NCBI GenBank assembly: GCA_002839505.1
Contig: PGYE01000001.1
Location: 833,995 to 897,994 of the forward strand
Reading direction: 5' to 3'
From: Candidatus Peregrinibacteria bacterium HGW-Peregrinibacteria-1
Lineage (GTDB): Bacteria; Patescibacteriota; Gracilibacteria; UBA1369; LOWO2-01-FULL-3
Length of the DNA: 64,000 nt
Of the stretch, positions 6,434-52,561 are shown one piece after another (positions within the stretch are counted from its first letter, which is position 1; each line of letters opens with the position of its first letter). The notes under the pieces were generated by a model. That model ran no database searches. It saw only the letters and a program-made list of their open reading frames with translations, and was not told the origin of the DNA. The position numbers and the translations under genes are program-made.

Positions 6434-7852
6434 TGCTTTTGCCACATTCATAATTCGCCCCTCCTGCCAATGAGGAGCAATAATCTGCACTCCAATCGGC
6501 AAGCCGTTTTTAGATGTGCCGAAAGGGCAACTCATCGCCGGAAGCCCAGCCGCACTTGCTGGTATCGTCAAGGCATCAGCCATATACATCGCCAAAGGAT
6601 TGTCCGCCAACTCCCCCACCTTAAAGGCCGGGAAAGGTGAAACCGGAGTCAAAAGCACATCAACCTTCTTAAAAGCATTATCAAAATCCTCAATAATCAA
6701 AGTTCGCACCTGCTGTCCTTTTTTATAATAAGCATCATAATAACCAGCTGAAAGCACATAAGTTCCTATCATGATTCTTCTCTTTATCTCATCACCAAAC
6801 CCCTCACCTCTAGTCTTATAATAGTAATCAACGGTATCGCTATACTCCTGACTCGTTGGCACCCCATAGCGAATTCCGTCAAATCTCTCCAAATTAGCCG
6901 ATAGTTCCGCTGGCATCGTCACATAATATACCGCAACCGCATACTTAGTTTTTGACAAAGACACATTAATAATTTCCGCCCCCATCGCCTCAAGCTTACT
7001 CGCCGCCTTCTTTACGACCTCACAAGTCTCATCATCCACTCCTTCCCCAAAATATTCCTTTGGCAATCCCACTTTAAGCCCCTTAACATCTCCACCCAAA
7101 AATCCCAAATAATCCGGCACCTCCACATCCAAAGTCGTAGAATCATACTTATCCTTCCCCGCAATCACATTCATAACATATGCCATATCCTCAACCGTTC
7201 TCGTAAAAGGCCCCACGACATCCCATGAACTCGCCATCGCCGTCACACCCGAGCGGCTAACCCTTCCATAAGTTGGCTTCATACCATAAACACCGCAAAA
7301 AGAAGCCGGCTGTCTCACCGATCCTCCTGTATCCGTTCCCATGGAATACACACACATATCTGATGCCAAAGCCGCCGCACTCCCTCCTGATGACCCTCCG
7401 GCCACACGCTCCAAATCATGCGGATTCTTCGTCACCCCAAAACAAGAATGCTCCGTAGAACCACCACAAGCAAATTCATCCATATTCAACTTCCCCACCA
7501 TAACCATTCCCGCCGAATTCAAACGCTCCACCACCGTCGCATTATAAGGTGGCTTAAACCCCTTCAAAAACTTTGAACAACAAGTCGTCTGAATCCCCTT
7601 CGTATTAAATATATCCTTCAAACCGGCCGGCACACCTTCCAAAGCCCCTATTTTCTCACCACCGGCAATTTTATCATCCACCACCTTCGCCTGAACCCTC
7701 GCCTCCTCCTCCGTCACCAATACAAAAGAATTCAATTCCTTATCTTTACTCTTGATCACAGCCAAACAATCCTCCAATACCTCGGTCGCCGAAAACTTCT
7801 TCTCCACAAGCCCGCTGTTAATATCCCTAATATTCAATTTATTTAATGACAT
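6419..7852 (-). CDS. gatA: Glu-tRNA(Gln)/Asp-tRNA(Asn) amidotransferase subunit A
   Basis: Amidase subunit of GatCAB. It releases ammonia from glutamine, which GatB uses to convert Glu-tRNA(Gln) (or Asp-tRNA(Asn)) to the cognate amide. The amidase signature is intact: Lys79 (GVPAGLKD), Ser154 in AGGSSGGS and Ser178 in GTDTGGS give the Ser-cisSer-Lys triad at the usual positions. 477 aa is normal. It follows gatC on the same strand after 25 nt. gatB is not in the window. The tRNA-Gln at 46938 carries the U1-A72 pair that bacterial GatCAB prefers. Confidence 0.95.
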   Translation of the reverse strand: MSLNKLNIRDINSGLVEKKFSATEVLEDCLAVIKSKDKELNSFVLVTEEEARVQAKVVDDKIAGGEKIGALEGVPAGLKDIFNTKGIQTTCCSKFLKGFKPPYNATVVERLNSAGMVMVGKLNMDEFACGGSTEHSCFGVTKNPHDLERVAGGSSGGSAAALASDMCVYSMGTDTGGSVRQPASFCGVYGMKPTYGRVSRSGVTAMASSWDVVGPFTRTVEDMAYVMNVIAGKDKYDSTTLDVEVPDYLGFLGGDVKGLKVGLPKEYFGEGVDDETCEVVKKAASKLEAMGAEIINVSLSKTKYAVAVYYVTMPAELSANLERFDGIRYGVPTSQEYSDTVDYYYKTRGEGFGDEIKRRIMIGTYVLSAGYYDAYYKKGQQVRTLIIEDFDNAFKKVDVLLTPVSPFPAFKVGELADNPLAMYMADALTIPASAAGLPAMSCPFGTSKNGLPIGVQIIAPHWQEGRIMNVAKALESF

Positions 7853-10603: not shown

Positions 10604-12760
10604 CTATCTTCTAATAACCTTCCTGACCGACAAAACGCCACTTACCGCCTCCAAACGATCAAATAAAGTGTCGATCACATCAACCGCTTCAAATCTCAAA
10701 GAGAAAAACATCTCCGTCAAACCGGACTTCAAAGGAGCCACCCCGACATCTTCGATATGAATCCCCAAATCCGAGATAACCGCCGATACATCGCGCATCA
10801 TCCCCACTCTCGAAGCAACCGTCACCTTAAGCTTCAAAATGTAATAATCCACAACCTTACCGGATTGATCCCTCCATTCTGCCGCAACAATTCTCTCTCC
10901 ATTCAAATTATCCAACAAATTACACGAAAACTTATGGACAGTTATTTTTCCTCCCCGCGTAACATATCCCACAATGCGATCACCTAGATTCGGCTTACAG
11001 CAAGATGCCATTTTGATTGGCAAATCCGACTCCCCGCCAATCAAAACTTTTTTTTCAATACTTTCATCATCAAAAGATTTAGCAATATCCACCGGCTTTT
11101 TGGGCACATCAACCGCTCGATCATATGGAAAGACCTTCTTTATTACCTCATGAGCCAGCTGTGATCCCCTCCCCACCTCCTCAACCAAAGTCTCACGATC
11201 ACCAAAAGAAAGATTCTTCCCTAAATAATCTTTAAATATCGAATAGTTTTGATCCAGCTTTGCTTGCCCCAACCTTTCCAACTGAATATTCAATAGTCTT
11301 CGACCCTCCTTGATATTTTTCTCACGATTAAACGAGGAAAACCATGCCTTAATACGGTTTCTAGCCACGCCGGTTTTTACATATGAAAGCCACTGCAACT
11401 TCGGAGCAGAATTATTTTTCGTGATAATTTCAGCCATCTCACCATTTTTGAGATGATAATTTAGCGGCACCACCCGCCCATCCACCTTGGCCAAAACACA
11501 TCGATTGCCGACATCCGTATGTATGCTATATGCAAAATCAATAGGTGTCGCACCCAGCGGCAAATCTTTTACCTCTCCACCGGGAGTCAAAACAAAAATA
11601 CGATCCTTAAAAAAATTAACCTCCATTTCTTTAAGCCCCTCCTCATCACTCGAAAAATCCGTTCTTATTTTCTCCAACACCTTCACCCACTCCTGCCCAA
11701 TAAACTCCTCCTCCACCGTATTAGACTGTTTATAAAGCCAGTGTGAAGCAATTCCGTATTCAGAATCACGATGCATCTTTTGATCCCTAATCTGGATTTC
11801 CACCGGCTGCTCATGATCCTTCGGAGCAAGTCCCAGAACCACCGTATGCAAACTTCGATATCCATTGGGCTTTGGCACCGCCACATAATCCTTAAACCTC
11901 CTTGAAATTGGCTTCCATTTAGTGTGAATTGCCCCCAACACACTATAAAGACCATCAAAAGATTGATGCCCCTCATTATCAAACTGAATTGGCAAAATAA
12001 CTCTTATTGCAAAGATATCGTATAGATCATTGACCGAATGTAAGCCTTTTCGGGTCAACTTCTTATGAATACTATATAAACTCTTCATTCTTCCCGTCAC
12101 CTCAGCCTCAATTCCCTTCCCTCTAAAAAAATCTTCGAGCTGCCTTTGAATCAATGAGATTGAGACATGACAACTCGCCCTCAAAACTTTCAACTCCTTA
12201 CTCAAACGCTGATAATGAAGAGGACTCGTATATCTAAACGCCAAATCCTGAAGCTCCGTCTTCATTCCATATATACCCAATCTTTCAGCTATCGGAACAT
12301 ACAACTCTAAAGTATCCACAGCAAACTCTCGTCTCATTTCCTTCGGAATCGCATCGATATCATACATATCACAAAGCCTTTCCGCCAAATCAATCACAAT
12401 AACGCGCATATCACTCCCCATAGCCAAAAACATTTTCCGCTTAGTTTCCAGCTGGCTACTGCTTCCCCCCTCAACCTTCTTAACCTCCTCCAAACTCCTC
12501 AATCCCTTAACTAGGTTAAACACATCCTCCCCAAATTCATCAATCAAAGCCTCCTTCGAAATCCCCCCATCAATATAAGCATCCTTTAAAAGCAACGAAA
12601 AAACAGTCTCACTACCGGGAGAAAAGGGCAGCAACAGCTTCAATGTCTCCAAAACACGAGTCTCCTTCGAATCCGCAACATACCCTAAAGCAGACCTCAA
12701 CAAATCCAAGTCAAAATCTTTATCATAACTCCTAATTCTATCAATTATTTTATCTCCCAT
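10604..12760 (-). CDS. relA: RelA/SpoT-family (p)ppGpp synthetase with degenerate hydrolase domain
   Basis: Long RSH protein: HD region (about 20-165), synthetase (about 215-345), TGS (about 385-450), CC/zinc-finger-like region (ASCCKPNLGDRIVGY) and C-terminal ACT domain. The synthetase site looks intact (RFKD at 288-291, then PNGYRSLHT and EIQIRDQKMH). The HD hydrolase motif is lost: LLKDAY stands where LLHDVVEDT is expected near residue 60, and LAERLCDM replaces LADRLHNM. It is therefore probably a synthetase only, although it has the RxKD motif typical of bifunctional enzymes, not the ExDD of classic RelA. 718 aa. Confidence 0.9.
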   Translation of the reverse strand: MGDKIIDRIRSYDKDFDLDLLRSALGYVADSKETRVLETLKLLLPFSPGSETVFSLLLKDAYIDGGISKEALIDEFGEDVFNLVKGLRSLEEVKKVEGGSSSQLETKRKMFLAMGSDMRVIVIDLAERLCDMYDIDAIPKEMRREFAVDTLELYVPIAERLGIYGMKTELQDLAFRYTSPLHYQRLSKELKVLRASCHVSISLIQRQLEDFFRGKGIEAEVTGRMKSLYSIHKKLTRKGLHSVNDLYDIFAIRVILPIQFDNEGHQSFDGLYSVLGAIHTKWKPISRRFKDYVAVPKPNGYRSLHTVVLGLAPKDHEQPVEIQIRDQKMHRDSEYGIASHWLYKQSNTVEEEFIGQEWVKVLEKIRTDFSSDEEGLKEMEVNFFKDRIFVLTPGGEVKDLPLGATPIDFAYSIHTDVGNRCVLAKVDGRVVPLNYHLKNGEMAEIITKNNSAPKLQWLSYVKTGVARNRIKAWFSSFNREKNIKEGRRLLNIQLERLGQAKLDQNYSIFKDYLGKNLSFGDRETLVEEVGRGSQLAHEVIKKVFPYDRAVDVPKKPVDIAKSFDDESIEKKVLIGGESDLPIKMASCCKPNLGDRIVGYVTRGGKITVHKFSCNLLDNLNGERIVAAEWRDQSGKVVDYYILKLKVTVASRVGMMRDVSAVISDLGIHIEDVGVAPLKSGLTEMFFSLRFEAVDVIDTLFDRLEAVSGVLSVRKVIRR

Positions 12761-51183: not shown

Positions 51184-51687
51184 CTATTTTTTACCACTCC
51201 TATTCCTATATTCTTCCACAACTTCACCTAACACATCGTCCACACAAGCTATTGCACGCTCTCCGATCATCAGTTGTGCCTGTTGGACAGGAAGTGTATT
51301 AGGATCATCTGGATCCAAAAGTCTCAATCCAACATCTTGTAACCCCTCATTCATAAGCTTACGTGCCTCTGGATCTCTCATAAAACCATCCATAATCCTT
51401 CTCAAATCATCAAATGCATATTTCATCGAAAGATCATGCGCTGCCATACAATCAATTACCGCCTCTTCATCACCTGCATTAACCTTTTCCATAAGATATG
51501 CATAGTGATTCAATGAACCCCAGCTTCCAACTATTTGCTCCAAAGCAATCACCTCCTCTCGAGTCATTGTCTCCGATCGTATTGTTTTCTTTGCAAACAA
51601 ATCCTCAAATACTCCAAATGCTTCCCTCTCCGCTTCATCCAGCATGCTATCAAGCTCATCATTTGAAGGCACATATATATCTACCAT
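51184..51687 (-). CDS. Hypothetical acidic helical protein
   Basis: 167 aa, rich in Glu/Asp/Ala/Met, predicted all-helical (DELDSMLDEAEREAFGVFED, VDDVLGEVVEEYRNR). No family recognised. It starts 93 nt downstream of the multi-helix RNA element when read on the minus strand, so it may share its transcript. Confidence 0.6.
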   Translation of the reverse strand: MVDIYVPSNDELDSMLDEAEREAFGVFEDLFAKKTIRSETMTREEVIALEQIVGSWGSLNHYAYLMEKVNAGDEEAVIDCMAAHDLSMKYAFDDLRRIMDGFMRDPEARKLMNEGLQDVGLRLLDPDDPNTLPVQQAQLMIGERAIACVDDVLGEVVEEYRNRSGKK

Positions 51688-52132
51688 ATAATTATATTAC
51701 AAATTTATCATTGCTACTGTACCGCAAATTAAGAAAATGTCAGCCTTGTTGAACTTGCAGCTAACTACCCTTTCTACCAGGGCGCAATCTTATTCTGTTT
51801 AGGCATATCGGAGCCTTTGCGGGCCGGTGCCTCTCACAGACTTAATTCATGGTAATCTTCGCCTATCACTTATTTTGCGTCATCGCGATTATGTCGAGCG
51901 ATCATGCATCGCGAGACATGGGCAAGGCGTACATGTTAGCCGCAGCCCACTTAATCGCTTAAAGCAAAATAAGTATGGTGAAGATCACCTAAAGGCGAGA
52001 TCTGAGGTGCAATTTCCCGCTGGGGAAATTGACACCGTCCCAAACAGAATAAGATTGCACCCCACATTTTTTGTATTGCTATAAATCCCTAATAAGCATA
52101 GATTGCATCTCAATTAAAATATCTCTCACAAA
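51688..52132. other. 445-bp gap containing the multi-helix RNA element
   Basis: No protein gene. The element occupies 51780-52062. The remaining 70 nt before the CxxC protein and 92 nt before the hypothetical gene are AT-rich; no clear promoter was found in either orientation. Confidence 0.6.
51780..52062 (-). ncRNA. Candidate multi-branched structured RNA (283 nt)
   Basis: The ends pair over 24 bp (51780-51803 with 52039-52062). Inside are P2 52006-52036 (13 bp, one bulge), P3 51851-51860/51980-51989 extended by 51868-51878/51964-51974 (11 bp perfect), two branches inside P3 (51891-51919 with a 5-nt loop and 51920-51948), and a smaller stem 51801-51832. Three pairs in P1 and P3 (51783/52059, 51801/52041, 51854/51986) are G.U when read as minus-strand RNA but A.C mismatches on the + strand, which points to the minus strand. 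No RNase P, tmRNA, SRP or 6S signature. A DNA element with terminal inverted repeats (MITE-like) is the alternative. Confidence 0.55.
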
Positions 52133-52561
52133 ATGGTAAATCACAACAAAGGACGCAACGCCGGCAAAGGTCCCAAAAAATATGCCCAAAAAGGCCCGAC
52201 TGGAAGCAATTTTGCCTCAAGAAAATACGATAAAAAATCTGACGAACGCAGCTTCAGACCCTCAAGATTTGCCGACAGAGACTCCGACAATAGAGCTCCA
52301 AGAGTAACCATGCACGAAACCGAGTGCAGCAGTTGCGGAAGAGACTGCCGAGTTCCTTTTAGACCCAGCGGCGAAAAACCCGTTTACTGCAGTGACTGTT
52401 TTCAAAAAGACAATGACAGATCAAAAAACAACCAACCCCGAGCATTCACAAAAGATAACTTCAAAGCGCCAAAATTCAAACAAGCAAGCCCCTCCTCCAT
52501 CACCTCTGAACAGTTTGAAATCCTCAACGCAAAGCTCGATAAGATTCTAGATCGCCTTTAG
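52133..52561 (+). CDS. CxxC-x17-CxxC zinc-ribbon protein
   Basis: 142 aa. A basic Lys/Arg/Gly N-terminus is followed by the zinc ribbon TECSSCGRDC, VPFRPSGEKPVYCSDCFQK (about 62-90), the pattern known as the cxxc_20_cxxc domain, frequent in CPR genomes. A C-terminal helix (SEQFEILNAKLDKILDRL) follows. Probably nucleic-acid binding; function unknown. The last 38 nt overlap the convergent hypothetical gene. Confidence 0.8.
   Translation: MVNHNKGRNAGKGPKKYAQKGPTGSNFASRKYDKKSDERSFRPSRFADRDSDNRAPRVTMHETECSSCGRDCRVPFRPSGEKPVYCSDCFQKDNDRSKNNQPRAFTKDNFKAPKFKQASPSSITSEQFEILNAKLDKILDRL

Follow-up and report, generated by a model that had tools for sequence, protein, structure and literature searches.

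The window analysed here is a stretch of 64,000 nucleotides (positions 833,995-897,994 of PGYE01000001.1, assembly GCA_002839505.1, forward strand) from Candidatus Peregrinibacteria bacterium HGW-Peregrinibacteria-1 (Patescibacteriota; Gracilibacteria; UBA1369), whose genome consists of one contig of 998,424 bases. An element at 51780-52062 sits between two divergent genes, 51184-51687 (-), encoding a 167-aa protein without Pfam match, and 52133-52561 (+), encoding a treble-clef zinc finger protein (PF23477). Its closing helix is an inverted repeat of 24 nt with 92% complementarity, made by the ends 51780-51803 and 52039-52062. Folded as RNA, the minus strand of 51780-52062 reaches -133.1 kcal/mol, against a mean of -78.5 for shuffled sequences (z -10.6; 0 of 200 shuffles), and the plus strand is about equally stable (-127.6, z -11.1). 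Folding as single-stranded DNA gives z values of -9.9 and -9.0 for the two strands. The structure is confirmed, and the multi-stem anatomy with a 24-bp terminal helix, described in an earlier note on this DNA, is present in the sequence. That note was also correct about both imperfect positions of the closing helix, which are G.U when the minus strand is read and A.C when the plus strand is. The Rfam search that it proposed (release 15) returned zero families at the gathering threshold and nothing meaningful at E<=10, so the element is absent from Rfam. Beyond what had been seen from this single locus, the element is multi-copy, nested and a member of a lineage-wide family. Its parts are given below; the strand is that of the sense orientation, the G-rich chromosome strand, common to all 17 loci of the genome.

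51780..52062, minus strand: whole composite A{B}, in which the apical part of module A holds module B (fold, inverted repeat, copy comparison)
52039..52062, minus strand: 5' outer arm of module A, GGGTGCAATCTTATTCTGTTTGGG (inverted repeat)
51780..51803, minus strand: 3' outer arm of module A (inverted repeat)
52006..52036, minus strand: module A hairpin, GGTGTCAATTTCCCCAGCGGGAAATTGCACC (sequence, fold, copy comparison)
51851..51990, minus strand: module B inserted in module A (sequence comparison of copies)
51964..51974, minus strand: 5' arm of the 11-bp perfect helix of module B (inverted repeat)
51868..51878, minus strand: 3' arm of the 11-bp perfect helix of module B (inverted repeat)
51876..51965, minus strand: double hairpin conserved as the core of module B (66.7 bits with covariance model R1, whose training set includes this copy)
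51918..51950, minus strand: core hairpin 1 (P3), near-invariant apex CTAACATGTACG at 51928-51939 (alignment, covariation)
51892..51918, minus strand: core hairpin 2 (P4), apex RCATG between A-T closing pairs (alignment, covariation)

Related DNA is found at 17 dispersed loci of the 998-kb genome, all on the same strand, the short opposite-strand matches being palindrome arms. The copies lie in intergenic DNA and are composed of two palindromic modules, A (GCAATCTTATTCTGTTTGGG...CCCAAACAGAATAAGATTGC) and B (GGTAATCTTCACCATACTTATTTTGC...GCAAAATAAGT...GAAGATTACC). In the window the nesting order is A{B}, module B standing in place of the GCTCGCCTCACTTCGTTC of uninterrupted A copies. Module A is enclosed by B at C1:133, 652 and 679 kb; in such B{A} forms, the A copies are inserted at core hairpin 1. 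The order is B{A{B}} at C1:420 and 493 kb, and right-hand remnants at C1:83, 924 and 947 kb reveal additional nesting levels. Nesting reaches up to three or four levels, some module halves having been identified by eye. Pairing is kept where sequence is not. Other copies of the module A hairpin bear the paired substitute GCCGTTAATTT...AAATTACGGC, and the outer arms of module A are unlike between copies yet still paired, for example at C1:338, 924 and 947 kb.

Across the order, an exact pattern with CTAACATGTACG and RCATGAT as the loops of the double hairpin matches 12 of 89 genomes, and the reversed pattern matches none. Among 84,980 species genomes scanned, 21 stretches matched, and their titles all name Peregrinibacteria, Gracilibacteria or Peribacteria. 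The exact loop pattern was not found in viral contigs, and a viral carrier was therefore rejected. The search for CPR homologues with a covariance model, as proposed in the earlier note, was carried out with a model (R1) of the module B core built from 25 copies. It found the core in 24 of the 89 Peregrinibacteria genomes of the order and in 0 of 264 other genomes of the class; core counts per genome are lower bounds, 12 candidates of each genome being scored. Variants with a core of about 127 nt and an extra pair of small hairpins within the stem-loop of hairpin 2 are seen in two of the genomes (L141-L147, from G061 and G068).

Alignment of 25 cores shows that 24 of the 33 pairs have changed on both sides. 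Double-changed cells number 170, where 58 are expected from shuffles (0 of 500 shuffles) and at most 74 are obtained when the partners are slid. Outside the core, the outer arms, which reach about 30 bp, are unlike between copies and complementary within each. At four orthologous loci, 27 pair positions have swapped from one Watson-Crick pair to another, and the single-side changes comprise 13 G.T, 12 A.C and 8 others. The copies share no foot or end sequence; their ends differ. The loops, with an apical CATG in both hairpins, are nearly fixed across the 25 cores, an invariance that must be read knowing that the set was partly chosen by the exact loop pattern. In the model search, for which loops need not match exactly, most have CATG and a few CGTG, and three copies carry CGTG in both loops. 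The RCATG of hairpin 2 could kiss the CATGT of hairpin 1. This possible 5-bp contact between loops 1 and 2 would use standard pairs in 25 of 25 cores, and covariation does not prove it because the loops are almost invariant. CGTG/CGTG loops would still pair as RNA (with G.U), not as DNA. Compensatory changes in helices, a criterion for structured RNA, are thus abundant; they are also expected of a folding DNA element.

RNA and DNA may be told apart by the imperfect pairs. A count that used no energy model gave 56 G.U and 90 A.C on the sense strand of relatives, over core plus outer stems, with some alignment noise in the outer-arm numbers; the copies of the window's own genome give 16 and 16. 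In comparison, 30 distinct tRNAs from the same contig set gave 48 G.U and 0 A.C, a control that is indicative only, since the pairing rules of ARAGORN favour such an outcome. G.U is therefore not preferred over A.C across the family, and the argument of the earlier note that the G.U/A.C asymmetry assigns an RNA to the minus strand fails at this scale. In a genome with such a strong strand bias in composition, a single copy could easily acquire two or three G.U sites. The pairing pattern is Watson-Crick complementarity, as expected for DNA.

The orientation of the copies bears on the same question. With long ORFs taken as flanking genes, 15 copies are sense to both neighbours, 15 antisense, 19 convergent and 6 divergent, and genes near copies are co-oriented in 219 cases and opposed in 230. 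Within the window's own genome, orientation relative to flanking genes is also mixed. With respect to GC skew, 21 copies of relatives lie on the G-rich strand and 2 against it (where |skew| exceeds 0.1 in stretches of at most 20 kb), a count to which nine genera besides that of the window contribute. Some of these copies, from sister genomes, are not independent, so that the p values for this bias are too strong. All loci of the own genome (17:0) are on the minus, G-rich strand. Plus-strand GC skew ranges there from -0.10 to -0.40 in 36 of 36 sampled stretches, the window included, and its sign never switches. The own genome was covered by stretches surrounding hits together with spaced samples. 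The G-rich strand is normally the leading strand, and leading-strand sequence equals that of the lagging-strand template. Thus, if the leading strand is G-rich as in other bacteria, the sense strand of the element would be the lagging-strand template. One-sided skew, suggestive of unidirectional replication, has been reported for Microgenomates, while Peregrinibacteria were called normal (PMC7143001). Since orientation ignores flanking genes and follows replication polarity, the role of leader for the gene at 51184, suggested in the earlier note, is not a property of the family.

Comparison of matching sites in related genomes suggests that the element is mobile. Genomes G002 and G025 have a palindrome of about 200 bp where G020 reads GACAAATCAAAATAAAG, and G025 has a copy of about 160 bp where G002 has GAAGAAGGTGAATTCTTTGC. 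The empty sites of sister genomes lack the entire palindrome, arms included, and insertion of a core into pre-existing terminator hairpins was therefore rejected. A possible target duplication, AAAA, is seen in one A-rich site, where it is ambiguous, and none is clear in the other site. Left halves without right halves persist upstream of 11704-11793 (minus strand) in L116 and at about 6590-6640 in L132, so that copies are also broken by deletion; one presumed empty site was actually a truncated half element. In an apparent groES-groEL intergenic region (judged by start codon and neighbours), G002 and G025 carry copies (L117:11634-11724 and L127:11359-11448) that have different arms and a core inverted in one of them. 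One of the two copies lying against GC skew is found here.

Candidate enzymes were sought. The own genome has no match to the Y1 (HUH) transposase PF01797, for which control genomes gave matches, and no reverse transcriptase was detected in it. Hence mobility of the RAYT/IS200 type or by reverse transcription was rejected. Nor is Y1 associated with the element among relatives (6 of 24 carriers, 17 of 65 non-carriers). Two Xer-type recombinases are present. The second tyrosine recombinase (L175) gave no match above cut-off to the integron-integrase model, and a close homologue occurs in about half of the genomes, carriers and non-carriers alike; with neither match nor association, it was rejected as the mover. 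This gene (L177, G000:C1:526000-541000, 6933-7826 (-)) adjoins six consecutive same-strand ORFs split by attC-like repeats ending CGTTAnnTGAAAT (L177, 8285-13075), an array that resembles an integron cassette array. Elsewhere, its homologues are often near contig ends. No transposase-bearing relative of the element was seen, in enzyme searches that covered Y1 transposases, reverse transcriptases and tyrosine recombinases.

Considering these properties, the best explanation is probably a small mobile palindrome of non-coding DNA. Its sense strand would fold while single-stranded in the lagging-strand template. An enzyme would then recognise the folded double hairpin via its apical loops and shift it into other single-stranded template. 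Arm complementarity would be kept by template switching at the palindrome and/or by selection for folding, and nested forms may arise by modules A and B inserting into, and recombining with, one another. Counting against mobile DNA are the lack of a mobilising enzyme among those sought, the lack of a clear target duplication, the two copies against skew and the three with CGTG/CGTG loops.

The last of these fits G.U-tolerant loop-loop pairing in an RNA, which would belong to a new structured class, be transcribed from the minus strand, contain two kissing hairpins and act either in cis or as a small RNA. Such a class would also account for the strong covariation with invariant loops and for the stable RNA fold. 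It is nevertheless unlikely, given that G.U is not favoured over A.C, that orientation is random to flanking genes (including the 15 antisense and 6 divergent cases), that no promoter was found beyond chance and that the long arms are unlike between copies. Taken together, gene-random orientation, the link to replication and the lack of G.U preference indicate that the covariation points to folding of single-stranded DNA, and the element likely behaves not as a functional RNA but as DNA that folds in its single-stranded state. Of the new structured RNA class proposed in the earlier note, what stands is an unlisted covarying family absent from Rfam; its RNA nature and strand assignment do not, in view of the G.U counts and of orientation.

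A mobile element of classical type may also be envisaged, namely a MITE derived by deletion from a DDE-transposase IS and moved through recognition of its terminal repeats. Terminal inverted repeats, a size of about 150-300 bp, intergenic placement, nested insertions and empty sites speak for it. However, the ends vary between copies and the apical loops are conserved instead, and a strand bias is unexpected from double-strand cut and paste, which makes this origin quite improbable. Of the marks by which the earlier note would have recognised a MITE, multiple copies, inverted ends and empty sites are found, whereas a conserved end sequence and a clear target duplication are not. The orientation tied to GC skew and the intergenic placement would in turn suit a polar chromosomal signal, selected for its orientation in replication, segregation or DNA uptake. 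This appears very unlikely for an element that is patchy (24 of 89 genomes), has one to about 17 copies per genome, is present or absent between sister genomes and occurs in truncated and nested copies.

In terms of mobile DNA, the element of the window thus likely belongs, as a single copy, to a family of small mobile palindromes in Peregrinibacteria that had not been listed before. The family would best be filed as new, with loop-only conservation and replication-linked orientation. Only tentatively may it be imagined as a new kind of mobile DNA, in which the apical-loop letters alone are conserved, the remainder is freely replaced if paired, and a mover that is neither Y1 nor reverse transcriptase acts on the lagging-strand template. 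Covariation with invariant loops is usually taken as proof of a functional RNA, and screens for new RNA classes could mistake such DNA elements for RNAs. In uncultivated CPR bacteria, the family also preserves a natural record of mobility that is strand-specific.

Several known systems invite comparison. Integron attC sites have hairpins with RYYYAAC...GTTRRRY boxes at their foot and stand in a cassette array; the element does not fit them, its conserved bases being apical and its copies dispersed, and the cassette-like repeats beside the second recombinase offer a comparison. REP/REPIN sequences and their TnpA-REP (RAYT) are closer, being intergenic palindromes recognised strand-specifically as folded single strands and moved in trans (PMC8266576, PMC6006769). 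However, REPs are 20-50 nt long with a GTAG guide at the stem foot, whereas the element, of about 150-300 nt, keeps sequence only in the apical loops, lacks a GTAG/GTGG at the foot of a 20-50 nt palindrome and resides in a genome without Y1 transposase. Members of IS200/IS605 (IS608, ISDra2) also move as single strands and target the lagging-strand template (PMC6006769), and their orientation is therefore tied to replication. In contrast, the element has neither tnpA nor tnpB, and instead of a pair of subterminal hairpins flanking a gene it consists entirely of the hairpin. In common with MITEs, it is dispersed in multiple copies that end in inverted repeats, and empty sites are seen. The MITEs and palindromic repeats of bacteria (Correia, ERIC, RUP, Rickettsia palindromic elements, Caulobacter CIR) share a length of 100-200 bp, an intergenic location and long stem-loops, and CIR has two arms and a conserved motif in the terminal loop (PMC2229807). 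These are recognised by conserved sequence or ends, whereas the stems and ends of the element are free and its orientation follows replication. Finally, the GC clusters of yeast mitochondria are mobile palindromes without an enzyme of their own, which merge into larger hairpins under structural constraint (PMC4478555); unlike the element they are mitochondrial, smaller (GC42 has 42 nt and the merged form 86 nt) and flanked by short direct repeats. On present evidence the element is not a REP, having neither guide motif nor Y1, not an Rfam RNA and not an RNA class. By analogy, it would act most like hairpin-recognised single-strand mobile DNA of the REP/RAYT and IS200/IS605 kinds and like the merging palindromes of mitochondria.
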